In this document: one piece after another, positions 1,958 through 38,396 of the stretch
Layout: each line of letters begins with the position of its first letter
How positions within the stretch are numbered: position 1 is the stretch's first letter
From: Porphyromonas crevioricanis
GTDB taxonomy: Bacteria > Bacteroidota > Bacteroidia > Bacteroidales > Porphyromonadaceae
DNA length: 64,000 nt
Assembly: GCF_900167225.1 (NCBI RefSeq)
Contig: NZ_FUXH01000003.1
Location: 1 to 64,000, forward strand
Direction: 5' to 3'
The notes under the pieces: generated by a model
Database searches by the model: none
Seen by the model: the letters and a program-made list of their open reading frames with translations, nothing else
Told to the model about the DNA's origin: nothing
Translations under genes and position numbers: made by a program

Positions 1958-2692
1958 ATGTCGGATTTTCCCCTCTTCTACGCACCGGATGTAGCATCGA
2001 CAGCCTCTCTACCAGAAACTGAGGTTGCTCACTGTTGCCGTGTACTGCGCCTTTCGGCCGGAGAAGAAATAGAGGTTACGGATGGACAAGGACATTTCTA
2101 TCACGCACGACTGACACAAGTAGACAAACGAGGCTGCTCCCTGGAGCTTCTGCAAAAAAATCACTGGCAACCCTATTGGGGTGGACGAATTACCATAGCC
2201 ATTGCTCCGACCAAGAATATGGATCGGATGGAATGGATGACAGAAAAGCTCGTTGAAATGGGGGTTGATACCATTGTTTTTATGCAAACGTCTCAATGCG
2301 AACGAAAACAGATACGTGCAGATAGGATAGAGCGTATCGCTGTCAGTGCCATGAAGCAATCGCTCAAAGCCTACCTTCCCCGGATAGAAGTAGGCCGACC
2401 ATTCAGCGACTTTGTCCGAAGCCAGAGCTCATCTGACTCTTGTAGACTCATTGCCCACTGCTCATCACAGAAGGACTTACCCCAACGACTTCCGTTCCAC
2501 AAACTATATAAGGGGCAAGAAGATGTAGTAGTCATGATTGGCCCGGAGGGAGACTTTTCCCTACAGGAAGTGCAAGAAGCCATTTCATTCGGCTTTGCTC
2601 CGCTCAGTTTGGGAGAAGCTCGCTTACGAACAGAAACAGCAGCCCTCTCTGCTTTGTCCTGGATACACGCAATACAACAAATGCGACAATAA
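1958..2692 (+). CDS. rsmE: 16S rRNA (uracil-1498 N3)-methyltransferase RsmE
   Basis: A SPOUT-class methyltransferase that would methylate U1498 of 16S rRNA in the small ribosomal subunit, using S-adenosylmethionine. The N-terminal PUA-like part starts FPLFYAPD and contains VLRLSAGEEIEVTDGQG. The C-terminal trefoil knot carries IGPEGDFS and LSLGEARLRTETAA, the SAM-binding motifs of the family. Length (about 244 aa) is normal. I start at ATG 1958; ATG 1949 is possible. The in-frame TTG at 1913 overlaps a TAAATTTG -7-like box at 1908-1915 and would lie at or before the transcription start. The carboxyltransferase gene follows after 44 bp on the same strand. Confidence 0.92.
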   Translation: MSDFPLFYAPDVASTASLPETEVAHCCRVLRLSAGEEIEVTDGQGHFYHARLTQVDKRGCSLELLQKNHWQPYWGGRITIAIAPTKNMDRMEWMTEKLVEMGVDTIVFMQTSQCERKQIRADRIERIAVSAMKQSLKAYLPRIEVGRPFSDFVRSQSSSDSCRLIAHCSSQKDLPQRLPFHKLYKGQEDVVVMIGPEGDFSLQEVQEAISFGFAPLSLGEARLRTETAALSALSWIHAIQQMRQ

Positions 2693-5388: not shown

Positions 5389-7707
5389 TTATTTAGACAC
5401 TGATATTTGATAACCCAAACGCTTCTTCTTGTAATGTATGGAGAGTATATAATTGCCTTCTACGAACAAATCACCCAATTCCAAAACAGCCAACTGTGAG
5501 TGATAATGATTTTCATAGCAAAGCTCTCCCGCATAGTTATAAACACGTACTTGCATTTCGGGCTGTTTATCCGAAGAAGGGAGCTGTATCAAAGCTCTGG
5601 TTCCATCCCAGCGCACCTGCACATGTTCGGGATCTTTCAGTCCGCCTTCCTGACCGATAGGTTGTACCAGCAAATCAACCCAATAGCTCCCTTGATAGGG
5701 AGATTCGGTGTCTGTAGCCGGTATCCAGAGAGCTTCACTATTCTTGTGAAAAGCAGCCGAAGCACTGGTTGTCTGAGTTTTCAAGCGCAACACTGGCAGA
5801 TCCATCGGTCTCATATCTGTAGTATTAAGACCACAGACAATCTCCAGGTTTCCATTCAAATCGAGATAATTTCCTCCATCAGAAGTCTCAATGGGGATAA
5901 AAAAGTCTATTGTATCAGTTACAGTGCGAGCACGAGGAGAGAACTCCTCCTGATTGGCATTGTAGCGAAGGTATTGCGGTTCCTTTACCTTATTGAAATA
6001 CACCAACTGCTTGGGCTTACCCGGCTCTCCTGCATAAATACTCAGGTTGTAATCTTTGAAATCTCCCCAATTTTTGATCGGCTTCATTGGGGCTAATACA
6101 GCATAAGCTCCCAATATCCTCACTTTTGACGGGAAAGAGTAGACTGTACCCACCCCGAATATGGAAGTTCCCTCGAAAGCTGCATGCTCCAACTGGTCGC
6201 TGTGCAACGAATTGATAACTCGACTGATACGCACAGCCGGATGAGGAGCATAAGGATCATATCCCTGACAGTAAATAGCACCACTACCACTCTTGTCCAA
6301 CTTATCCCTAAGGGAATGCAAAGGATTGCCCGTATCCGCATCCCAGCTTTTGTTCAAAGCCCAGAAAAAGTCGTTGTAAGGAGTTGGGCAATAAGAGCGA
6401 CCACCCGAAAGGGCTCCAATGATCAAACCATTTCCATCGAACAGAGGAGCACCACTCGAACCGGGAGCAGTAGTGCCCATCTGCCATTGTTTGATATGCC
6501 AATGCACATCCCTCCAAGTATACTTCCCTGCATTGAAACTCTTCAGACTGATTGGGCTATCACTCCGACTATATCGCTTAACTGCTGCGAGAGGGTGATG
6601 AATAGTAGTATAAGGAGCAGGCGGTGTACCACTGATATTCCACCCGGCAAAATAAGGCTTATAAGCCGCAGGGATAGGCAAATCTTTTCCCTCTCTATCT
6701 TTGGGCAGACCTGTAATTCGCAGCAAACACATATCTCGCTTCTCATTAAAAGCGATCAGCTCTGCTCCACTAAGAGTGAGCTCTTCGGAGCCTCGGATAA
6801 ACGATTTGGCCAAGGGGCTTTCAAAACCGAAGAAAAAGACTGTAGTACGAGCAATACGCGCTGACTCTCCCTCGATCCCAGTAAATGCAAAATTTCTATT
6901 ATAGCAATGAGAGGCTGTCAAGACATAAGGAGTACCATCAGAAGCAGTGTTGTTGATCAAAGCACCACTACAAACGACACGCCCCTCCACAACCATTAGC
7001 AAAACAGAGCGTGATTGTTCGTTCACTTCCGGGTGGCCAGCTACATTCGGAGCACAATCCAGCCCCGAGAGTGTATGCCACGGCTCTCCGACATCATGGA
7101 CCCTCAGCTGACTCAAATCCTTATATGCATGATTTAATTCAGTGATTTTCAGACGCATATTATCCGGCAACAACTTATCTGGGTTAGTTGGCCAACTACA
7201 CTCAATTGTTATTTCATCCCCGGCGAGAGGTGCAACGGCCAATATACCGGAAGGATTGTTGTTCTGATCGGTATAAGCACCTTTAACACCAAAGGGAGTA
7301 TAGACATACAATTCCGCTTCGGGAGGGAGTTGATACTCTCCAAAAAGGACATTCAGGCTATAAGCTCCATGACTCTTTAGCCTAAGGGTCCATACACTGC
7401 GATCTCCCACTTGCACTATACGCCCACTATTATCAGGGCTATAATCCAAAGACCTCCCAACAGCAAAAGGATAAGCTCCTCTCAACACGGAAGAGCTATA
7501 AGCTTCCTCCTGACGATAGATAGCAGCACTATCTATAGGAGGCAACTCTACACAAAAATCCGAAAAGCCGGTAGAGCGAAGCCTGAAAAACTGCTCAGAC
7601 AAGCCCATGGGCATGCCTGCTCTCTCGATCTGCCCCCAAGCCCGGGGAATCGACAGAAAAGCGAGCCCCAACAGAATGGAGAAAAAGTATCGGTATAGTT
7701 TAGACAT
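5389..7707 (-). CDS. T9SS-exported trypsin-like protease (lysyl endopeptidase type), paralogue 1
   Basis: A 772-aa secreted serine protease. The signal peptide starts MSKLYRYFFSILL and ends RAWG|QIE. An N-terminal propeptide-like region with ELYVYTPFGVKGAYT precedes an S1-fold domain with the triad His267 (LTASHC), Asp325 (KRDMCLL) and Ser418 (PGSSGAPLF). A beta-rich region follows, and the end (EGNYILSIHYKKKRLGYQISVSK region) looks like a T9SS sorting domain. The start at 7707 is chosen over 7728 because a -7 box TATCTTTG (minus strand, 7731-7738) would place the RNA start about 15-20 nt before 7707. Two paralogues lie at 24481 and 52327. Lys-specificity is inferred from the family only. Confidence 0.85.
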   Translation of the reverse strand: MSKLYRYFFSILLGLAFLSIPRAWGQIERAGMPMGLSEQFFRLRSTGFSDFCVELPPIDSAAIYRQEEAYSSSVLRGAYPFAVGRSLDYSPDNSGRIVQVGDRSVWTLRLKSHGAYSLNVLFGEYQLPPEAELYVYTPFGVKGAYTDQNNNPSGILAVAPLAGDEITIECSWPTNPDKLLPDNMRLKITELNHAYKDLSQLRVHDVGEPWHTLSGLDCAPNVAGHPEVNEQSRSVLLMVVEGRVVCSGALINNTASDGTPYVLTASHCYNRNFAFTGIEGESARIARTTVFFFGFESPLAKSFIRGSEELTLSGAELIAFNEKRDMCLLRITGLPKDREGKDLPIPAAYKPYFAGWNISGTPPAPYTTIHHPLAAVKRYSRSDSPISLKSFNAGKYTWRDVHWHIKQWQMGTTAPGSSGAPLFDGNGLIIGALSGGRSYCPTPYNDFFWALNKSWDADTGNPLHSLRDKLDKSGSGAIYCQGYDPYAPHPAVRISRVINSLHSDQLEHAAFEGTSIFGVGTVYSFPSKVRILGAYAVLAPMKPIKNWGDFKDYNLSIYAGEPGKPKQLVYFNKVKEPQYLRYNANQEEFSPRARTVTDTIDFFIPIETSDGGNYLDLNGNLEIVCGLNTTDMRPMDLPVLRLKTQTTSASAAFHKNSEALWIPATDTESPYQGSYWVDLLVQPIGQEGGLKDPEHVQVRWDGTRALIQLPSSDKQPEMQVRVYNYAGELCYENHYHSQLAVLELGDLFVEGNYILSIHYKKKRLGYQISVSK

Positions 7708-28121: not shown

Positions 28122-28380
28122 CCTTTTTATACGTCTTGTATAGGTCTATCAAAACACCGATGAACAGGGCATTCTAAAGGGGTCAAAATTCTCTCAGGAG
28201 AGAATTTTTGCTAACACAGGAGAGAGCAATTTTTTTCTCAGGAGAGAATTTTCATTCTCTCCCGTGTTAATCAAAATCGGCTCCCATCAGCATCAAAAAA
28301 AGATCGGAAAAACCCAATAAAAAGCCCCCGATCCGAGCAGAAAATGCACCGCAAACAGAACACAATAAAACACAGAAAAA
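28122..28380 (+). repeat. Dispersed hairpin repeat R1, copy C (full length)
   Basis: Aligns along its length with copy B (12911-13165): shared ACCGATGAANAGGGC, GGAGAGAATTTTTGCTAACA, TCTCTCCCGTGTTA and the A-rich right flank with CCGATCCGAGCAGAAAA. The right arm here is GTGTTAATCAAAA, so the outer stem is less perfect than in copy B. From 28381 to 28637 I see no gene. Confidence 0.85.
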
Positions 28381-28637: not shown

Positions 28638-28668
28638 TTTGGTCTTTTGAATATAATACATACCTTTG
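28638..28668 (+). promoter_or_regulatory. Bacteroidetes promoter of the 4-hydroxybutyrate operon
   Basis: TTTG (28638-28641), exactly 19 nt, then TACCTTTG (28661-28668): a perfect match to the primary sigma factor consensus. Transcription should start near 28676, about 22 nt before the cobalamin aptamer. Confidence 0.88.
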
Positions 28669-28697
28669 TGTCGCTTTGGTGAGCGTAGCGGTAACCA

Positions 28698-28890
28698 CTG
28701 TTGCGTTGTAATAGGGAATCCGGTGAAAGTCCGGGACTGTCCCCTCAGCTGTAAGTTCGAAAAACAAGAAGCAGCAATCTCACCGGCCACTTCCGCGCCC
28801 CGGGTGTTTTTATCCCAGGCTCCGCTTTCAAGGAAGGAGGGAAGGCCGTTGCTATCTCGAACAAGTCAGAAAACCTGCCAAGGCAAGCAG
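28698..28890 (+). promoter_or_regulatory. Adenosylcobalamin riboswitch aptamer
   Basis: Contains the conserved cobalamin core: GGGAATCCGGTGAAAGTCCG (from 28724), GACTGTCCCCTCAGCTGTAA, and the B12 box AGTCAGAAAACCTGCC (28864-28879). A closing helix P1 is formed by CTGTTGC (28698-28704) with GCAA.CAG (28883-28890). The element lies between a strong promoter and abfD, about 300 nt from the start codon. Cobalamin riboswitches normally switch genes off when the cofactor is abundant. Confidence 0.93.
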
Positions 28891-28935
28891 CTCTCAGCAA
28901 CTCGGGGTGAAGGGTAACGAGAGTGATGTTTTTTT
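28891..28935 (+). terminator. Probable riboswitch expression platform
   Basis: Directly after P1, CTCTC (28891-28895) can pair with GAGAG (28919-28923), or CTCG (28901-28904) with CGAG (28918-28921), ahead of a run of seven T (28929-28935). This looks like a ligand-dependent intrinsic terminator, although the stem is modest. Confidence 0.55.
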
Positions 28936-28978
28936 AGTCAATACAAGACAAGAGTAGTCTATGCGCTTGGATACAAGT

Positions 28979-29018
28979 CGCAGTTGCGTTATGGCCGTTT
29001 GGGGCATAATGCGCTGTG
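28979..29018 (+). other. Second hairpin in the abfD leader
   Basis: GCGTTATG pairs with CATAATGC (one G-U), extendable outward by CGCAG with CTGTG, giving a stem of about 13 bp within 28979-29018. It lies beyond the putative riboswitch terminator and inside a 62-codon open frame (28961-29149) with no clear ribosome binding site. The rest of 28936-29188 shows no other recognisable element. Confidence 0.45.
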
Positions 29019-29188
29019 GGATGTCGCAGCCTATAGAGAGTTTGAGGACAAGGTTAATGGCTGTCCGAAACTCTATCCCTTTTGAGGAAGAATCATTTTT
29101 CCTCACAGGTAGATTGTCCTTGTCACCCGGTCTCGATCGAACGATCTAAATCACTTTGTAATACGAATCAACAAAAAACAGTGCTATT

Positions 29189-30649
29189 ATGATGACAAGT
29201 CAAGAGTACATTGAGAGCATGCGCAAACTCAACCTGAAGGTGTATTTCATGGGAGAGCGCATTGAGAACCCTGTTGATCACCCCATGATTCGTCCTTCAC
29301 TCAACTCTGTGGCCATGACCTATGAGTTGGCTGAGAAGCCTGAATATCAAGAGGTGATGACCGCCATTTCCAATCTTACTGGCAAGCGTATCAATCGCTT
29401 TTGTCACTTGCATCAGTCTACCGAAGACCTCAAGAATAAGGTAAAGATGCAGCGTCTGCTCGGTCAGAAGACTGCTTCTTGCTTCCAACGCTGCGTAGGG
29501 ATGGATGCTTTCAATGCAATCTACTCTACTACATATGAAATGGATCAGGAGCTTGGAACAAGCTACCACGCTCGTTTCGTAGAATATCTCAAATATGTTC
29601 AGGACAACGACCTCGTAGTAGACGGGGCAATGACTGACCCCAAAGGGGACCGTGGCCTATCTCCTTCTCAACAGGAAGACCCGGATATGTATCTGCATAT
29701 CGTGGAAGTGCGCGAAGACGGTATTGTCGTACGTGGAGCCAAGGCTCACCAGACTGGAGCTGTCAATTCTCATGAGCACTTGATCATGCCTACTGTTGCC
29801 ATGAAAGAAGGTGACAAGGATTATGCTGTTTCATTTGCCGTTCCCGGTGACACGGAAGGTCTGTTTATGATCTATGGTCGCCAGAGCTGTGACACTCGTA
29901 AGACAGAAGCCGGAGCCGAAATAGACCTCGGTAACCCCACATTCGGAGGACACGAAGCTTTGGTAGTATTCGACAATGTGTTTGTACCCAACGAACGCGT
30001 CTTCATGTGTAAGGAATACCAATATGCAGGTATGATGGTAGAACGATTTGCCGGCTATCATCGTCAAAGCTACGGAGGCTGCAAAGTGGGTGTGGGAGAC
30101 GTGCTCATTGGAGCTGCTGCTTTGGCCGCCGAATACAACGGTGTGCCTAAAGTATCTCACATCAAGGACAAGTTGATAGAGATGATACATCTGAATGAAA
30201 CACTCTACGCTTGCGGTATTGCTTGTTCTTCCGAAGGTAAACCTACTGCATCCGGTAACTATCTGATCGACTTGCTTCTGGCGAATGTTTGTAAGCAGAA
30301 TGTTACACGTCTGCCATATGAGATTGCTCGCCTGGCCGAAGATATCGCTGGAGGTCTGATGGTAACCATGCCATCTGAGCAAGACCTGCGTGATCCGGAG
30401 CTTGGCCCAGTGGTGAAAAAGTATCTCAAGGGAGCTGTAGGAAAAGATACAACCAATAGAATGCGTATCCTGCGACTGATCGAGAATATGACATTGGGTA
30501 CTGCAGCTGTCGGCTACCGTACGGAGTCTATGCACGGAGCCGGTTCTCCTCAAGCCCAACGCATCATGATTTCTCGTCAAGGCAACTTGGAAGCCAAGAA
30601 ACAAATGGCAAGAGAGATTGCTCGCATTGATACCTCTTTGGATAAGTAA
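29189..30649 (+). CDS. abfD: 4-hydroxybutyryl-CoA dehydratase / vinylacetyl-CoA isomerase
   Basis: A 486-aa flavin and [4Fe-4S] enzyme that dehydrates 4-hydroxybutyryl-CoA to crotonyl-CoA, the key step from succinate to butyrate. The cluster ligands known from the Clostridium enzyme (Cys99, Cys103, His292, Cys299) are all present one position earlier: Cys98 and Cys102 (TASCFQRCVGMDA), His291 and Cys298 (AGYHRQSYGGCKVG). Length is right for the family. The enzyme does not use B12, yet its gene follows a cobalamin riboswitch. It is the first gene of an operon with a NifU-like gene, abfT, 4hbD and probably sucD, and is sensitive to oxygen in other anaerobes. Confidence 0.96.
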   Translation: MMTSQEYIESMRKLNLKVYFMGERIENPVDHPMIRPSLNSVAMTYELAEKPEYQEVMTAISNLTGKRINRFCHLHQSTEDLKNKVKMQRLLGQKTASCFQRCVGMDAFNAIYSTTYEMDQELGTSYHARFVEYLKYVQDNDLVVDGAMTDPKGDRGLSPSQQEDPDMYLHIVEVREDGIVVRGAKAHQTGAVNSHEHLIMPTVAMKEGDKDYAVSFAVPGDTEGLFMIYGRQSCDTRKTEAGAEIDLGNPTFGGHEALVVFDNVFVPNERVFMCKEYQYAGMMVERFAGYHRQSYGGCKVGVGDVLIGAAALAAEYNGVPKVSHIKDKLIEMIHLNETLYACGIACSSEGKPTASGNYLIDLLLANVCKQNVTRLPYEIARLAEDIAGGLMVTMPSEQDLRDPELGPVVKKYLKGAVGKDTTNRMRILRLIENMTLGTAAVGYRTESMHGAGSPQAQRIMISRQGNLEAKKQMAREIARIDTSLDK

Positions 30650-30680
30650 TAATATTCAAAAACTCTTAAGATAGAAGACG

Positions 30681-30983
30681 ATGACCCGAAAACTACCGAC
30701 CGAATCGGAGATCAAGGAGGTGTTGGACCGTGATGTCCGGCCATCTCTGATGAATCATAGCGGAGACGTTCAGCTAAAATCTATCCGCCCAGATGGTACG
30801 GTAGTTGTGGAGTTTTTAGGTTCGTGTCGCTTTTGCCCCGCTGCCCTGGATACGTTGGAGTCCTTGATAGGGGGAGCCTTTGCCAATTCTTTTCCTCAGT
30901 CCAATCTCCGAGTCGTATTAGGCGGGGGGGTAAGCGATAGTCTTTTGAGTGAAGCCAAACGCCTGATGGGTAAGACGCATTGA
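30681..30983 (+). CDS. NifU C-terminal-domain iron-sulfur scaffold-like protein
   Basis: A 100-aa protein made of a single NifU-like (Nfu) domain with the motif CRFCPAALDTLES, whose CxxC binds or transfers Fe-S clusters in the family. It lies 31 bp after abfD and overlaps or abuts abfT, inside the 4-hydroxybutyrate operon. A dedicated role in loading or repairing the [4Fe-4S] cluster of AbfD is a reasonable inference; general Fe-S delivery is the alternative. Confidence 0.85.
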   Translation: MTRKLPTESEIKEVLDRDVRPSLMNHSGDVQLKSIRPDGTVVVEFLGSCRFCPAALDTLESLIGGAFANSFPQSNLRVVLGGGVSDSLLSEAKRLMGKTH

Positions 30984-30988
30984 AAAGT

Positions 30989-32281
30989 ATGAAGAACTCG
31001 TATCAATCGAAAGTTGTTAGTGCCCTGGAGGCTGTAAAACACATCCCTAACGACAGCTTGGTAGTTATGGGACATGCTGCAGCCGTGCCTCAGCTTTGTT
31101 CACAAGCTATAGCCGATAATTATCAGCAATATTCCAATGTGCGCATTTACCACATGCTTTGCTTGGGCAATGCGCCATATACAGCCCCTGAGATGCAGGG
31201 GCATATCACTCATGTGACCAACTTTGTAGGAGGGAATACTCGCCAGGCCGTAGCCGAGGGTAGAGCAGACTTTTTCCCGGCCTTCTTCTATGATGTTCCT
31301 CGTTATTTCCGAAATGGTCTGTTGCCAGTGGATGTAGCGGTAATACAGGTCTCCGAACCTAATGAAGAAGGATACTGTAGCTTTGGTCTTTCTTGCGACT
31401 ATACCAAGCCGGCTGCCGAGTGCGCCAAAATGGTTATTGCAGAGGTAAATAAGCAGATGCCTTTTGTCGGAGGGGACAACTTTATACACGTAGATCAGAT
31501 AGATTACATCGTAGAGGCCGATTATCCTCTCTACGAAATTCCTTTGCCCAAAATAGGAGAGGTAGAGCAAGCTATCGGAGCCAATGTCGCTTCCTTGATT
31601 CCCGATGGAGCCACATTGCAGCTTGGTATAGGGGCAATCCCCGATGCCGTATTAGGTTTTTTGGGCGAAAAGAAAGATTTGGGTATTCACACAGAAATGT
31701 TTTCCGACGGGGTATTGCAGTTGGTAAAGGATGGTGTGATTACCAACCAGGTCAAGCCTATCCACAAGGGAAAGCTCACTGCTACATTCTTGATGGGGAC
31801 AAAAGCCCTGTACGATTTTGTAGACCACAATCCCGATGTAGATCTTGCACCTGTAGATTGGGTGAACAACCCGACCACTGTCATGCAGCTCGACAAGATT
31901 ATCAGCATCAATAGCTGTATTGAGGTAGACCTCATGGGGCAAGTAGCCAGTGAAACCATCGGTCTCACACAGTTCAGCGGTACCGGAGGTCAAGTCGATT
32001 ACGTACGTGGCGCAGCAATGGCCGATCATGGGGTAAGCATTATGGCTATGCCTTCAACGGCAAAAAAAGGGACCACTTCCCGCATCGTTTCTCTTCTGGC
32101 TGCGGGTTCTGCTGTCACGACATCTCGCTGTGATGTAGACTACGTGGTTACCGAATACGGCATAGCACATCTGCGAGGAAAATCACTAAAAGAAAGAGCT
32201 AAAGCCCTCATTGCGGTGGCTCATCCCCAGTTCCGCTCGGATCTGGAAGCAGAGTTTGCCAAACGTTTCCCGATGGCCTGA
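30989..32281 (+). CDS. abfT: 4-hydroxybutyrate CoA-transferase
   Basis: A 430-aa CoA-transferase of the acetyl-CoA hydrolase/Cat2 family, expected to pass CoA from acetyl-CoA (or butyryl-CoA) to 4-hydroxybutyrate. Motifs: LQLGIGAIPDAVL, and HTEMFSDGVLQL with catalytic Glu236, plus a C-terminal VVTEYGIAHLRGKSLKERA. The assignment to 4-hydroxybutyrate rests on the operon partners. ATG 30989 is used; a TTG at 30980 would overlap the nifU-like stop codon. 4hbD follows after 38 bp. Confidence 0.92.
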   Translation: MKNSYQSKVVSALEAVKHIPNDSLVVMGHAAAVPQLCSQAIADNYQQYSNVRIYHMLCLGNAPYTAPEMQGHITHVTNFVGGNTRQAVAEGRADFFPAFFYDVPRYFRNGLLPVDVAVIQVSEPNEEGYCSFGLSCDYTKPAAECAKMVIAEVNKQMPFVGGDNFIHVDQIDYIVEADYPLYEIPLPKIGEVEQAIGANVASLIPDGATLQLGIGAIPDAVLGFLGEKKDLGIHTEMFSDGVLQLVKDGVITNQVKPIHKGKLTATFLMGTKALYDFVDHNPDVDLAPVDWVNNPTTVMQLDKIISINSCIEVDLMGQVASETIGLTQFSGTGGQVDYVRGAAMADHGVSIMAMPSTAKKGTTSRIVSLLAAGSAVTTSRCDVDYVVTEYGIAHLRGKSLKERAKALIAVAHPQFRSDLEAEFAKRFPMA

Positions 32282-32319
32282 TGCAGATTTTAGATTCATG
32301 ATATAAACCACATATTGAT

Positions 32320-33438
32320 ATGCAACTATTCAAGTTAGGTACAGTCATTCACGAATTTGACAATTTTGCCGAATTTGCCAAGGGGTTCAATCTCGGTGAG
32401 CGTGACTTGGTTATTACCAATGCTTTCCTCCACGAACCTTTCATGGCCAATCTCGGTCTGAAATGCAAGTTTGTGATGCAGGAGAAGTATGGTTTGGGTG
32501 AGCCAAACGACGAAATGATGAATGCCATCCTGCGGGATACCAAGGGTACTGACTTCGACCGTGTAATCGCTGTTGGCGGTGGTACGGTGATCGACATATC
32601 CAAATTGTTTGTGCTGAAAGGTTTGGGCGAAGACGTCCTCCCTGCTTTCGACAAGAAAATTCCTCTGGTGAAAGAGAAAGAATTGGTAATCATTCCTACA
32701 ACCTCTGGTACAGGTAGTGAAGTAACCAATATCTCCATCGCCGAGATCAAGAGCCGTCATACCAAGATGGGCTTGGCTGATGATGCCATATTGGCCGATC
32801 ATGCTGTGATCATTCCCGAATTGCTACGCGGTTTGCCTTTCAAGTTCTGGGCCGCCAGCTCTATCGATGCCCTCATTCATGCTGTGGAATCATATGTATC
32901 TCCTAAGGCTAACGTTTACACTCGTATGTGCAGCCTTACAGCCATGAATACCATATTAGATGTGTTCAAGGGCGTTGCTGCCAAAGGCGAAGAATACCGC
33001 TATGAAAGAATGGGAGATATGCTCATGGCTGCCAACATTGCCGGAATCGCATTTGGCAATGCCGGAGTAGGAGCCGTGCATGCTCTTTCTTACCCTCTGG
33101 GAGGTAACTACCATGTGCCACACGGAGAATCCAACTACCAGTTCTTTACGACTGTGTTCAAGGCCTATCAAGCCAAAAAACCTCAAGGATCAATTGTTGA
33201 GCTCAACGAAAAACTGGCTGCAGCATTAGGCTGTGAGGCTTCGGTTGTGTATGAGCGCATGGATGACTTGCTAGGTCGTTTGATTGCCAAGAAACCTCTT
33301 CGTGAGTATGGCATGAAGGACGAAGAAGTACGAGGATTTGCCGAAAGTGTTTTGCAAACTCAACAAAGATTGCTCAACAACAACTATGTGGAGCTGTCTG
33401 TAGATGAGATAGAGGCAATTTACCGCAGCCTGTTTTAA
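32320..33438 (+). CDS. 4hbD: 4-hydroxybutyrate dehydrogenase (iron-type alcohol dehydrogenase)
   Basis: A 372-aa NAD-dependent enzyme of the group III iron-activated alcohol dehydrogenases, reducing succinate semialdehyde to 4-hydroxybutyrate. Cofactor-binding segments AVGGGTVIDISK and PTTSGTGSEVTN and the metal-binding region SIDALIHAVESYVS, HALSYPLGG and YHVPHGESN are intact. It sits between abfT and sucD, which supports the substrate assignment. About 30 bp downstream the structured region at 33468-33629 begins. Confidence 0.93.
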   Translation: MQLFKLGTVIHEFDNFAEFAKGFNLGERDLVITNAFLHEPFMANLGLKCKFVMQEKYGLGEPNDEMMNAILRDTKGTDFDRVIAVGGGTVIDISKLFVLKGLGEDVLPAFDKKIPLVKEKELVIIPTTSGTGSEVTNISIAEIKSRHTKMGLADDAILADHAVIIPELLRGLPFKFWAASSIDALIHAVESYVSPKANVYTRMCSLTAMNTILDVFKGVAAKGEEYRYERMGDMLMAANIAGIAFGNAGVGAVHALSYPLGGNYHVPHGESNYQFFTTVFKAYQAKKPQGSIVELNEKLAAALGCEASVVYERMDDLLGRLIAKKPLREYGMKDEEVRGFAESVLQTQQRLLNNNYVELSVDEIEAIYRSLF

Positions 33439-33467
33439 GTAAAAAATACGTATAAGATAGGAAAGAA

Positions 33468-33629
33468 AGCAAAGAGGGAAGGGAAACCTCCACCTCTTTG
33501 CTCCCCAAACCACGAAAGACTGGGGAGGAGTTCCTGGTGAACCTCTCCAAAGCATCTGAAAAAACCACACAGATGTGCTACCCGATGCTTGCGCCGGTGC
33601 AACGGTGTGAGTAAGAGTTCGCACCGGCC
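33468..33629 (+). ncRNA. Candidate structured RNA between 4hbD and sucD
   Basis: Five hairpins follow one another. (1) AGCAAAGAGG with CCTCTTTGCT, 33468-33502. (2) CCCCA with TGGGG, about 33503-33526. (3) GGAGGAGTTC with GAACCTCTCC, imperfect, about 33523-33548. (4) AGCATCTG with CAGATG.GCT, 33551-33579. (5) GCCGGTGC with GCACCGGC, 33593-33628. None is followed by a T-run, so they are not simple terminators. The element lies 66 nt before the sucD start and could be a riboswitch, an RNA processing/stability element, or an sRNA. I do not recognise the family. Confidence 0.5.
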
Positions 33630-33695
33630 AAGCTCAGGTACAAAAGTCTGGATTTTATCATTGATCATCGATAAACCCAATACAAAAATCCTATT

Positions 33696-35051
33696 ATGGA
33701 AATTCGTGAAATGATTGAGGCCGCACGTAAGGCCCAACAACTTTATCAAGCTCGCTTCGATCAGCAAGCTGTAGACTTGGTAGTACGCGCTGCCGCCAAA
33801 ACAATTTATGACAATGCCGAGCTCTTGGCTCGTGAAGCCGTAGACGAAACTCAGATGGGTGTTTACGAGCACAAGGTCGCCAAAAACAGAAACAAATCTA
33901 AGGGAGTATGGTACAACCTTAGAGACAAAAAATCCATGGGCGTTCTCTCTATAGATGAGCGTACAGGGATGATAGAAATAGCCAAACCAATAGGCGTGGT
34001 TGCCGGTATAACGCCGATGACAAATCCGATCGTTACACCTATGAGCAAGATTATCTTTGCCCTGAAAACACGCAACGCGATAATCATCGCACCACACCCA
34101 AAGTCGAAGCGTTGTTCGGCCCACGCCATTGATTTAATACTTGAGGCAATAGCTCCTTTTGGTGTACCCGAAGGTATGGTACAGGTAATCCGTGAGCCGA
34201 GCATTGAGAAAACTCAAGAACTGATGTCCTTGGCCGACGTAGTAGTAGCTACTGGTGGTATGGCCATGGTACACTCTGCGTACTCTTCTGGTAAGCCTTC
34301 ATTCGGTGTGGGAGCCGGTAACGTACAGGTTATCCTCGACCGTTTCATCGATTTCGATGACGCTGCAGAGAAAGTTATCACTGGTCGTTCTTTCGACAAT
34401 GGTATCATTTGCTCAGGAGAGCAGTCTTTCATCTATCATAAAGATGACAAAGAAGAGGTGTTCCGTGCATTCCGTGCTCATGGAGCTTACTTCGTACCGG
34501 AAGAAGATAGAGACAAAGTGATCAACGCTATTTTCGAAAACGGCTCTATCGCTCGCGACATCGTAGGTAAGGGAGTGCAGGTGATCGCGAAAAAGGCAGG
34601 CATCACATGCCCCGAAGATACACGTGTGTTGGTTGTTGAAAGCCACGGATATGGTAAGGACGATATGGTGAGCAAAGAGAAGATGTGTCCGGTAATGGGA
34701 GCTTTCCCTTACAGCAACTTCGAAGAGGCTCTCAAGATCGCAAAAACCAACCTCTTCCTCGAAGGGAATGGTCACACAGCCGGTATTCACTCCAATAACC
34801 AAGCCAATATCATCAAGGCTGGTAGTGAAATCTCTGTAAGCCGTGTCATCGTGAATGCTCCTTGTGCAACTACTGCCGGAGGTTCTATCCAGAACGGTTT
34901 GGCCGTAACCAACACATTGGGCTGCGGATCTTGGGGTAACAACAGTATCTCTGAGAACTTCACATACAAGCATTTGCTGAATATCACACGTATAGCACCG
35001 ATTTCCGCTCGAATCAAGGTGCCTACTGATCAAGATATCTGGGAGTACTAA
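33696..35051 (+). CDS. sucD: CoA-dependent succinate semialdehyde dehydrogenase
   Basis: A 451-aa aldehyde dehydrogenase-fold enzyme that reduces succinyl-CoA to succinate semialdehyde with NAD(P)H, the entry step of the 4-hydroxybutyrate route. The active-site Cys239 is in FDNGIICSGEQSFI; other family segments are IAKPIGVVAGITPMTNP and ATGGMAMVHSAYSSGKP. It belongs to the acetaldehyde/CoA-acylating group rather than the ordinary SSADH group. It follows 4hbD by 257 bp that are highly structured, so its expression may be set separately. A strong terminator follows at 35093. Confidence 0.94.
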   Translation: MEIREMIEAARKAQQLYQARFDQQAVDLVVRAAAKTIYDNAELLAREAVDETQMGVYEHKVAKNRNKSKGVWYNLRDKKSMGVLSIDERTGMIEIAKPIGVVAGITPMTNPIVTPMSKIIFALKTRNAIIIAPHPKSKRCSAHAIDLILEAIAPFGVPEGMVQVIREPSIEKTQELMSLADVVVATGGMAMVHSAYSSGKPSFGVGAGNVQVILDRFIDFDDAAEKVITGRSFDNGIICSGEQSFIYHKDDKEEVFRAFRAHGAYFVPEEDRDKVINAIFENGSIARDIVGKGVQVIAKKAGITCPEDTRVLVVESHGYGKDDMVSKEKMCPVMGAFPYSNFEEALKIAKTNLFLEGNGHTAGIHSNNQANIIKAGSEISVSRVIVNAPCATTAGGSIQNGLAVTNTLGCGSWGNNSISENFTYKHLLNITRIAPISARIKVPTDQDIWEY

Positions 35052-35497: not shown

Positions 35498-37354
35498 ATG
35501 ACGAAGAAAGTAGAAGTGAAGGATCTCCCCTATGTGGTGGTTCGCTTCAGCGGAGACTCCGGTGATGGGATGCAGCTCACTGGAACAATCTTCTCCGATC
35601 TCTCTGCCGTTTTGGGGAATACCATCTCGACCTTCCCCGATTTTCCAGCCGAGATACGAGCTCCTCAGGGTTCACTTGGAGGGGTATCTGGCTTTCAGGT
35701 GCAGATCGGTACCAACCAGGTAATGACTCCCGGAGACTTGGCCGATGTGCTCGTGGCAATGAATCCCGCAGCTCTCAAGGTTAATAGGAATCACCTCAAG
35801 GAACGCTCTATCATTATTATAGATAGCGACTCCTTTACTTCTAAAGACCTGGAAAAGGCTGAATACAAGACAGATGAGCCTTTTGAAGAAATCGGGCTGA
35901 ATACACAGCAAGTAATCTCTGCTCCTATTTCGTCAATGGTTAAGGAGGGACTTGCAGAGTTTGGCTTGGATAATAAATCGGCCCTGCGATGCAAGAATAT
36001 GTTTGCCTTGGGTCTGGTTTGTTGGTTGTTCAATCGTCCAATGGATCATGCTTTTGAGTATCTCAACAACAAATTCAAGAAAAAGGACGATATCCGTAAA
36101 GCCAACATTAAGGCTCTTACAGATGGTTTCAATTATGGAGCCAACACACATGCCTCTGTATCGACCTATCGCATCGAAGGGAAAAAACAACAAGCTGGTA
36201 GATACCTCGATGTCAATGGGAACAAGGCTACATCCTATGGTTTGATAGCAGCTTCCGAACGAGCTGGACTGAACCTCTTTTTAGGATCCTACCCTATCAC
36301 CCCCGCTACAGATATTCTCCATGAGTTGGCTAAGCACAAGGCTCTTGGGGTAAAAACGGTTCAAGCCGAAGACGAGATTGCCGGTATTTGTACGGCTGTC
36401 GGAGCCTCTTTCGCAGGAAATTTGGCAGTAACCACAACTTCCGGTCCCGGTTTGGCTCTCAAGAGTGAGGCTATAGGTTTGGCTGTCATGGCCGAACTCC
36501 CATTGGTGATTGTGGATGTGATGCGCGGAGGACCTTCCACTGGTTTGCCCACCAAGAGTGAGCAAACCGACTTGCTACAAGCCCTGTACGGTCGCAATGG
36601 AGAGAGCCCTCTGCCTGTAGTTGCGGCTTCCACTCCTGCACAATGTTTTGAAGCAGCCTTCTGGGCTGCTAAGCTGGCTGTAGAACACATGACTCCGGTC
36701 ATATTGCTGACGGACTCTTTTGTAGCAAACGGCTCTACAGCATGGCGTATACCGGACATGAGCTCCCTACCCTCTATCGAACCTAATTACGTGTCTAACT
36801 ATAAGGAAGATCGGCCTTGGAAAGCTTATCGCCGTGATTCTGAATCGCAGGTTCGCTATTGGGCTATCCCAGGACAAGACGGTTACCAGCATCGTTTGGG
36901 TGGATTGGAAAAAGACTTTGATACAAGTGCCATCAGCACGCATCCAATGAACCACCAACTTATGGTACGCACCCGTCAGGCTAAGGTGGATTACATATCT
37001 AACAAAATCCCTGAATTGGAGGTACTGGGAGATGTTGAGGATGCCGATCTGCTCATCGTAGGCTGGGGAGGTACATATGGTCACCTCTATGCCGCCATGG
37101 AAGAGATGCGTCTTAATGGCAAGAAAGTTGCCTTGGCTCACTTCAACTTCATCAACCCCCTGCCTCGCAATGCAGCAGAGGTACTGCTCAAGTATAAGAA
37201 AGTTGTCGTAGCTGAACAGAATTTGGGTCAGTTTGCCATGTATCTGCGTTCTAAGGTGCCCGGCTTCAACCCAATGCAATTCAACAGAGTGAAAGGCCAG
37301 CCCTTCATTGTGGCTCGCTTAGTGGAGGAGTTTTCTAAGATGATAAATGAATAA
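35498..37354 (+). CDS. korA: 2-oxoglutarate:ferredoxin oxidoreductase, alpha (gamma-alpha fused) subunit
   Basis: A 618-aa subunit of a 2-oxoacid:acceptor oxidoreductase. The N-terminal about 190 residues are the gamma-type domain (VVRFSGDSGDGMQLTG, FPAEIRAPQGSLGGVSGFQV); the rest is the pyrimidine-binding alpha part (GSYPITPATDILHELAKH, VQAEDEIAGICTAVGASFAG, TTTSGPGLALKSEAIGLA). With KorB it would oxidise 2-oxoglutarate to succinyl-CoA, reducing ferredoxin. Immediate proximity to sucD, which uses succinyl-CoA, supports 2-oxoglutarate over pyruvate as substrate. Its end overlaps korB by 8 bp. Confidence 0.93.
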   Translation: MTKKVEVKDLPYVVVRFSGDSGDGMQLTGTIFSDLSAVLGNTISTFPDFPAEIRAPQGSLGGVSGFQVQIGTNQVMTPGDLADVLVAMNPAALKVNRNHLKERSIIIIDSDSFTSKDLEKAEYKTDEPFEEIGLNTQQVISAPISSMVKEGLAEFGLDNKSALRCKNMFALGLVCWLFNRPMDHAFEYLNNKFKKKDDIRKANIKALTDGFNYGANTHASVSTYRIEGKKQQAGRYLDVNGNKATSYGLIAASERAGLNLFLGSYPITPATDILHELAKHKALGVKTVQAEDEIAGICTAVGASFAGNLAVTTTSGPGLALKSEAIGLAVMAELPLVIVDVMRGGPSTGLPTKSEQTDLLQALYGRNGESPLPVVAASTPAQCFEAAFWAAKLAVEHMTPVILLTDSFVANGSTAWRIPDMSSLPSIEPNYVSNYKEDRPWKAYRRDSESQVRYWAIPGQDGYQHRLGGLEKDFDTSAISTHPMNHQLMVRTRQAKVDYISNKIPELEVLGDVEDADLLIVGWGGTYGHLYAAMEEMRLNGKKVALAHFNFINPLPRNAAEVLLKYKKVVVAEQNLGQFAMYLRSKVPGFNPMQFNRVKGQPFIVARLVEEFSKMINE

Positions 37355-38396
37355 AGCCATGCAAGAGAATACAAATCATACTGCTTGCCCTGTGTACGAA
37401 GCAAAGAATTTCAAAAATGAGCAGCTCGTGCGCTGGTGTCCCGGCTGTGGCGACCATGCCGTATTAGCGACTCTGCACAAAGCAATGGCTGAGGTTGGCA
37501 TTGCCCCGCATAATACCGCCGTAATTTCGGGTATTGGCTGTTCTTCTCGTCTGCCATACTACATGAATACGTACGGATTCCATACAATTCATGGTCGTGG
37601 TGCAGCTATCGCCACCGGTGTTAAGACTGCAAATCCCGAGTTGAGTGTTTGGCTCACCACGGGAGACGGAGATAGTTTGGCAATCGGAGGTAACCATTTT
37701 ATACATGCCATCCGTAGGAATATAGATATCAATATTGTCCTCTTCAACAACCGTATCTATGGTTTGACCAAGGGACAGTACTCTCCGACATCGGCCAGAG
37801 GCTTTGTTTCAAAAAGCTCACCCTACGGCACTGTGGAAGATCCTTTTATTCCGGCAGAGTTGGCCATGGGAGCCAGAGGTAACTTCTTTGCTCGAGGCAT
37901 AGATGTGGATATGCGCAATCTTCAGGACTGCATGGTAGCTTCTGCCAAGCATAAGGGAGCAGCTGTTACAGAGGTCTTGGTAAACTGCGTCATCTTCAAC
38001 AATGGAATCCACAAGACCATCACCGACAAAGATGTAAGAGACGACAGAACAATCTTACTGAAACATGGTGAGAAAATGATCTACGGAAAAGACAAGAACA
38101 AAGGGATTGTTCTTGATGGTCTAAAGCTCAAATCCGTGACCATGGGACAAGATGGCTATACTATGGATGATGTGTTGGTACACGACGCTCACGAGCCTTC
38201 CAACACGCTACATATGATGTTAGCCATGATGAATGGTGAGGAGTTGCCAATTGCTCTCGGAGTAATACGAGATGTAGAAGCTCCTACTTATGACGAATCG
38301 GTGACTAAGCAAATCGAAGAGGTTCGTGCAACCAATCCGGCACGCTGCCTGTTGGACGTATTGAATCGTGAATCTCACTGGGATGTCGCCGATTGA
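37347..38396 (+). CDS. korB: 2-oxoglutarate:ferredoxin oxidoreductase, beta subunit
   Basis: A 349-aa thiamine pyrophosphate-binding subunit partnering KorA. It shows the N-terminal WCPGCGDHAVL (cluster ligands), ISGIGCSSRLPYYM, and the TPP motif GDGDSLAIGGNHFIHA ending in LFNNRIYGLTKGQ. No separate ferredoxin-like delta subunit is encoded nearby, as is usual for two-subunit Kor enzymes. The start overlaps the end of korA by 8 bp; an internal ATG 12 bp later (MQENTNH) is an alternative. Followed by a strong terminator. Confidence 0.94.
   Translation: MNKAMQENTNHTACPVYEAKNFKNEQLVRWCPGCGDHAVLATLHKAMAEVGIAPHNTAVISGIGCSSRLPYYMNTYGFHTIHGRGAAIATGVKTANPELSVWLTTGDGDSLAIGGNHFIHAIRRNIDINIVLFNNRIYGLTKGQYSPTSARGFVSKSSPYGTVEDPFIPAELAMGARGNFFARGIDVDMRNLQDCMVASAKHKGAAVTEVLVNCVIFNNGIHKTITDKDVRDDRTILLKHGEKMIYGKDKNKGIVLDGLKLKSVTMGQDGYTMDDVLVHDAHEPSNTLHMMLAMMNGEELPIALGVIRDVEAPTYDESVTKQIEEVRATNPARCLLDVLNRESHWDVAD

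Follow-up and report, generated by a model that had tools for sequence, protein, structure and literature searches.

The succinate-to-butyrate operon and its leader

The window analysed here, a stretch of 64,000 nucleotides from Porphyromonas crevioricanis (assembly GCF_900167225.1, contig NZ_FUXH01000003.1, positions 1 to 64,000), carries on its forward strand an operon for the conversion of succinate to butyrate through 4-hydroxybutyrate, headed by a cobalamin (vitamin B12) riboswitch. The first gene, abfD (29189–30649), encodes 4-hydroxybutyryl-CoA dehydratase/vinylacetyl-CoA isomerase (best solved match 1u8v, 836 bits) and is followed by nfu, a gene for a NifU-domain (Nfu-like) protein recognised by domain match (30681–30983), by abfT for 4-hydroxybutyrate CoA-transferase (30980–32281; best solved match 3eh7, 625 bits), by 4hbD for an iron-type 4-hydroxybutyrate dehydrogenase (32320–33438; 30sm, 398 bits) and by sucD for a CoA-acylating succinate-semialdehyde dehydrogenase (33696–35051; 8cei, 499 bits). 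The product of 4hbD is an Fe-type dehydrogenase, the family expected for this enzyme, and AbfD, AbfT, 4HbD and SucD, the enzymes of the 4-hydroxybutyrate pathway, are encoded together. The structure matches and the NifU domain bear out the gene order given in an earlier note on this DNA, which had been made from the sequence alone. That note had also described a structured gap before sucD (33439–33695); hairpins are present there, but the gap folds only mildly better than shuffled sequences (z −1.54 at 33435–33560). Beyond sucD lies a 2-oxoacid:ferredoxin oxidoreductase pair (35498–38396), found likewise in Porphyromonas levii (L029, from 6544 onward), which could be a source of succinyl-CoA.

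Upstream of abfD, a Bacteroidota-type promoter of the form TTTG-N19-TACCTTTG spans 28638–28668 (TTTG at 28638–28641, TACCTTTG at 28661–28668), a pattern that we take to be the −33/−7 promoter consensus of the Bacteroidota. The motif is common in related leaders: of the 32 that have upstream sequence, 26 show TAnnTTTG by motif scan no more than ~90 nt from the aptamer core. A short repeated palindromic stretch (CTCAGGAGAGAATTTT and relatives) lies further upstream of the operon promoter, at 28190–28265.

The aptamer itself, at 28660–28896, matches the Rfam cobalamin model RF00174 over its complete length (model positions 1–189) with 87.7 bits, over the gathering score of 31.5 (E 2.8e-20), and scores 111.9 bits with our own covariance model, in which the window is one of the 12 building sequences. 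The 5′ arm of P1 (28673–28679), located at the expected transcription start, pairs with the 3′ arm at 28878–28884, and the B12 box AGTCAGAAAACCTGCC (28864–28879) has a rare G to A change (AGTCAGAAAACC) as its single difference from the AGTCAGAAGACC form. In an alignment of 18 sequences, changes on both sides were found at eight of the 19 predicted pairs; the B12 box and the P3–P6 core with its covariation, together with the full-model score over the curated threshold, place the element among the class-I cobalamin riboswitches. The promoter and the complete aptamer with P1 and B12 box reported by the earlier note therefore both hold. The element ends 292 bases before the abfD start codon and is one of only two RF00174 elements found in the 2.05 Mb genome of this strain (G000, 99.96% complete).

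After P1 lies a hairpin (28890–28924) with a GGGG-type loop, which is consistent with the P13/L13 element of the class-I riboswitches and may make a putative kissing contact with L5. Its folding energy is not better than that of shuffled sequences (z −0.69), although it is backed by covariation: in 11 aligned leaders out of the 33 at abfD, that of the window among them, 85.8% of cells are paired, and double-changed cells number 31 vs 12.9 in shuffles, with a clear drop when the structure is slid, the structure having been derived from those same 11 sequences. Most Porphyromonas and Tannerella leaders have a GGGG-like loop at this point, and rumen lineages have a different one. Four bases after the hairpin follows a run of seven T (28929–28935), and the two form a possible terminator, as the earlier note had supposed. 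On this point the outcome was mixed: hairpin, T-run and covariation are in place, whereas a T-run near the hairpin was met again in genome G011 but is not general among abfD leaders, and our terminator scan, which returned 14 terminator-like sites vs 6.0 in shuffles, mostly inside genes, did not list the site. From here to the start codon extends a long structured leader (28936–29188) with a strong double hairpin within 28985–29045 (z −3.29 against shuffles) and a further structured segment at 29070–29120 (z −2.44). In some leaders a possible short upstream reading frame follows the hairpin.

Distribution of the riboswitch upstream of abfD

Within a set of 26 Porphyromonas genomes, 20 of which carry abfD, the arrangement described for the window recurs: an RF00174 element lies directly upstream of abfD on the same strand in 15 of the 20, with 244–745 bases between the Rfam end and the abfD start codon. 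The other five are G003, G006, G008, G015 and G021, in the last of which a contig end cuts abfD, so that it was left out of the further counts. Given 85 cobalamin riboswitches in the 26 genomes, the chance of such adjacency is ~2e-43 under a naive model that ignores shared descent. The genus loci without the element (L114, L117, L125 and L130–L132) gave no cobalamin match in Rfam up to E 1. At the locus of P. loveana (G008) the promoter motif is kept and the aptamer has decayed; a search with filters off gives it 12.4 bits (E 0.084), and since Rfam found no match up to E 1, this remnant is traced by that score and the alignment alone.

Two further genomes, G003 and G006, keep abfD and show no mutase, no match to the B12-binding domain PF02310, NrdJ below cut-off and no cobalamin riboswitch. 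Both retain 35 bases, CCGCCTATTCCGGGGGAATAGGAGACGGTGGGTGA, upstream of abfD; this is the hairpin that follows the aptamer elsewhere, identical in G017 and with one difference each in G004, G009 and G022. In these two genomes the aptamer has been lost and the hairpin retained, G006 being a weaker witness than G003 (88% complete, 6% contamination, abfD split with stops).

Beyond the genus survey, we examined the 80 nearest abfD loci, 77 of them with enough upstream sequence (L010, L044 and L062, which have almost none, were left out of the adjacency counts). With our covariance model, 22 of the 77 proved to carry the element immediately in front of abfD; these loci come from Tannerella, P. levii, P. 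somerae, P. uenonis, other Porphyromonas, a Rikenellaceae metagenome-assembled genome (MAG) and uncultured Bacteroidales. Four of the 22 repeat genus genomes, so that together with the 15 genus carriers the total is 33 distinct genomes. Tannerella shows the adjacency at three loci. Because the 12 leaders from which the model was built all come from Bacteroidales, the other 58 loci were rechecked with Rfam, which gave no adjacent RF00174 at any of them, three having almost no upstream sequence, and left every count as it was. Rfam and the covariance model took the place of a strict regular expression on the B12 box, which had failed to detect elements in Tannerella and elsewhere. Of the 22 loci, 21 show the gene order abfD, often nfu, abfT, 4hbD, sucD; the sequence of the remaining one, L045, ends before abfT.

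The abfD gene is rare across the order (eight of 295 genomes in an order-wide survey). An AbfD tree of 92 rows places every one of the 33 carriers inside one Bacteroidales clade of 58 rows, and the element is found in none of the 33 assessable among the 34 rows outside it. Presence and absence of the riboswitch require at least eight changes of state on this tree.

Several additional riboswitches were recorded. G011 has two upstream of abfD, ~1.7 kb apart (L165:373–513 and 2227–2375, minus strand), between which the sole open reading frame (ORF) of at least 60 aa is one of 75 aa. Tannerella forsythia ATCC 43037 (L009) likewise has two of nearly equal score, the first (2547–2756) before a putative lipoprotein gene and transposase-like ORFs and the second (6985–7194) before abfD. 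In Clostridium simiarum (L076), a cobalamin riboswitch of 118.8 bits (5405–5593) lies 2.4 kb upstream of abfD, with one membrane-protein-like and one sigma-54-type regulator-like gene between them on the same strand; this is possibly an independent link of riboswitch and abfD outside Bacteroidales. The other element of the window's genome (L141:8126–8339, minus; G000:C12:30125–30338) has no gene directly behind it. As judged by eye, a terminator-like hairpin follows at ~7998–7928, and metG, with its own promoter-like site, stands ~480 bases on, which makes this riboswitch a candidate orphan or short regulatory RNA.

The B12-dependent branch and a proposed switch at succinyl-CoA

The mutase whose absence the earlier note would have counted against its proposal is present: the window's genome encodes intact MutA and MutB, and its MmdA lies in a cluster with an epimerase (Mce), a biotin carrier and MmdB, these three recognised by eye. 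A B12-dependent branch consisting of MutAB, epimerase and decarboxylase thus accompanies the abf operon in the same genome. The Abf and Mut enzymes belong to different families and do not catalyse the same reaction; from pathway knowledge, the two routes share only their substrate, succinyl-CoA (PMC9403272; this and the other articles cited here were available in part, and what is said of them refers to those parts).

We consider it probable that adenosylcobalamin (AdoCbl) keeps the butyrate operon repressed as long as MutAB is active, and that the riboswitch thereby acts as a branch switch at succinyl-CoA. The aptamer, the promoter-like sequence, the operon, the competing branch in the same genome and the conservation are observed here; from them we infer the ligand, the repression and the change in flux. 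Transcribed from its own promoter, the riboswitch would stand at the head of the abf operon mRNA. With AdoCbl in ample supply, it would fold together with the post-aptamer hairpin and lower expression of abfD, nfu, abfT and 4hbD, and probably of sucD too, while succinyl-CoA would pass through AdoCbl-dependent MutAB, the epimerase and the decarboxylase to propionate. A shortage of B12 would leave MutAB idle, and the abf operon would be made, so that succinyl-CoA would flow through 4-hydroxybutyrate and crotonyl-CoA to butyrate, a route by which redox balance could be held without B12.

The co-occurrence of riboswitch and mutase fits such a branch switch without proving it. Within the genus, the riboswitch is present in 15 of 17 mutase-positive genomes vs none of two negative ones (Fisher p 0.035), and among loci L003–L052, leaving aside L010 and L044 for their upstream sequence and L013 for its mutase fragment, in 20 of 41 mutase-positive vs none of six mutase-negative loci (one-sided Fisher p 0.028), shared descent being ignored in both comparisons. 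Also in its favour, the presumed P. gingivalis genome G005 has four riboswitches apart from the abfD element, two before apparent B12 uptake genes and one before an NrdD-like gene, all recognised by eye; the fourth has no clear target.

Several observations weigh against a switch between propionate and butyrate. Once the tree is taken into account, the paired comparisons are too few to reach significance (~1.5 pairs in the same direction, none in the opposite one and 3.5 without difference; L013, L014, L036, L053 and L076 had no mutase state, and L056, with a 45-residue mutase fragment, and L060, a MAG in which none was found, were set as mutase-negative). Moreover, 21 of the 41 mutase-positive loci lack the element: mutase and abfD occur without the riboswitch in, among others, P. 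canoris (L005), Porphyromonas sp. (L004), Alistipes (L008) and four Firmicutes, and within the genus G015 has both and shows no trace of a riboswitch in Rfam up to E 1. The leader raises difficulties of its own. Inspection by eye revealed no conserved terminator after the hairpin in abfD leaders, the P13-like hairpin is not evident in leaders of the P. uenonis group (G001, G023–G025), and leaders extend 184–835 nt after the core, a length that leaves the expression platform unexplained and makes direct masking of the ribosome site unlikely. The rare G to A change in the B12 box occurs in one of 33 abfD leaders, namely that of the window. Finally, the window's genome also encodes NrdJ (585 bits) and another two proteins matching PF02310, 138 and 271 aa long, the larger of which could, we presume, be a lysine-aminomutase subunit; MutAB is therefore not its only B12 enzyme.

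This last observation favours an alternative in which the riboswitch works as a repressor but in the service of a general B12 or redox economy, such as might involve NrdD/NrdJ or B12-dependent lysine fermentation, instead of a choice between propionate and butyrate. G005 points the same way with its riboswitch before the NrdD-like gene (L148; G005:C1:1552755–1553013, minus); NrdJ is present as well (619 bits), and the two look like a parallel B12-independent and B12-dependent pair. Against this stand G013, G014 and G018, which carry the abfD riboswitch with MutB as their only PF02310 match and NrdJ below cut-off, so that MutAB is the only B12 enzyme found there to pair with the switch, in a search that covered PF02310 and NrdJ and left families such as QueG outside. 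That succinyl-CoA is the substrate common to both pathways also argues for the branch switch, and we regard the general economy as an unlikely explanation.

Decay of the aptamer does occur, as seen in P. loveana, and the rare B12-box change could mark the window's copy as a relic inherited with the operon, its regulation lost; the same change is present in one other riboswitch among the genus loci, and 87.7 bits over the full model and the covarying hairpin make a relic quite improbable. Least probable is a riboswitch that activates, or at least does not repress, so that B12 would raise abf expression: non-classical control by cobalamin riboswitches exists (a Listeria antisense RNA, cited in PMC11575231) and the expression platform leaves room for it, but the other targets in the genus (uptake and nrdD-like genes, by eye) belong to the classical OFF type, and for a bypass that does without B12 an ON switch would make little metabolic sense.

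The branch switch proposed by the earlier note, with B12 choosing between propionate and butyrate, is accordingly upheld in part. Conservation across Bacteroidales, the joint loss of riboswitch and the B12 enzymes searched for in two genomes and the finding of no B12 enzyme other than MutAB in three carriers speak for it, whereas the loci with mutase and abfD but no riboswitch and the decayed element of P. loveana do not. With less assurance, we lean towards a wider reading, in which a set of points at succinyl-CoA operates across several Bacteroidales lineages, B12 from neighbours or host sets propionate against butyrate, and the switch is dropped when a lineage gives up B12.

Relation to known cobalamin riboswitches

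In its aptamer, its B12 box and the hairpin after P1, the element resembles the class-I riboswitches (RF00174) of uptake and biosynthesis genes, and riboswitches of this class also precede apparent B12 uptake genes in the same genus, as judged by eye. Unlike those, it stands over an operon of central fermentation, in which B12 is neither made nor used. Cobalamin riboswitches also control the B12-independent isozymes metE and nrdDG. The case of metE is documented (PMC8123684), and the arrangement at abfD is similar in that a B12 sensor stands over a B12-independent route while a B12-dependent one is also present. It differs in that Abf and Mut, which are not isozymes, start from a common substrate and lead to different end products, so that the end product would change too.

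The adjacency has precedent. A cobalamin riboswitch upstream of 4-hydroxybutyryl-CoA dehydratase was reported in Tannerella, labelled as adenosylcobalamin biosynthesis, with transcripts up-regulated in periodontitis (PMC7160235); the available portion of that report connects the gene with neither propionate nor butyrate, and the word butyrate does not appear in its text. For P. gingivalis, five cobalamin riboswitches are listed, attributed to Hovik et al. (PMC5771137), and a riboswitch before PGN_0704 is mentioned (PMC3764172). The succinate-to-butyrate route is listed for Porphyromonas and Tannerella in PMC9403272, riboswitches going unmentioned in the part available. Most identified cobalamin riboswitches down-regulate upon binding (PMC11575231). 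According to the same source, propionate production is B12-dependent in Xylanibacter ruminicola; there, as proposed here, B12 supply decides propionate through methylmalonyl-CoA mutase, but none of the four predicted riboswitches lies near propionate genes and the strain is without butyrate. A choice between butyrate and propionate made by B12 through an abfD riboswitch was not found in the literature searched, which left subscription journals mostly outside.

The adjacency is thus already in print for Tannerella, and what sets the present case apart is that the genes under control form a bypass leading to another end product. Host tissue and neighbouring microbes are affected differently by butyrate and by propionate. 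If the branch switch operates as proposed, the acid that these bacteria release would depend directly on how much B12 the mouth, gut or rumen supplies, and the abf operon would offer a simple, testable case of a riboswitch that chooses between two non-equivalent pathways and not between two versions of an enzyme.

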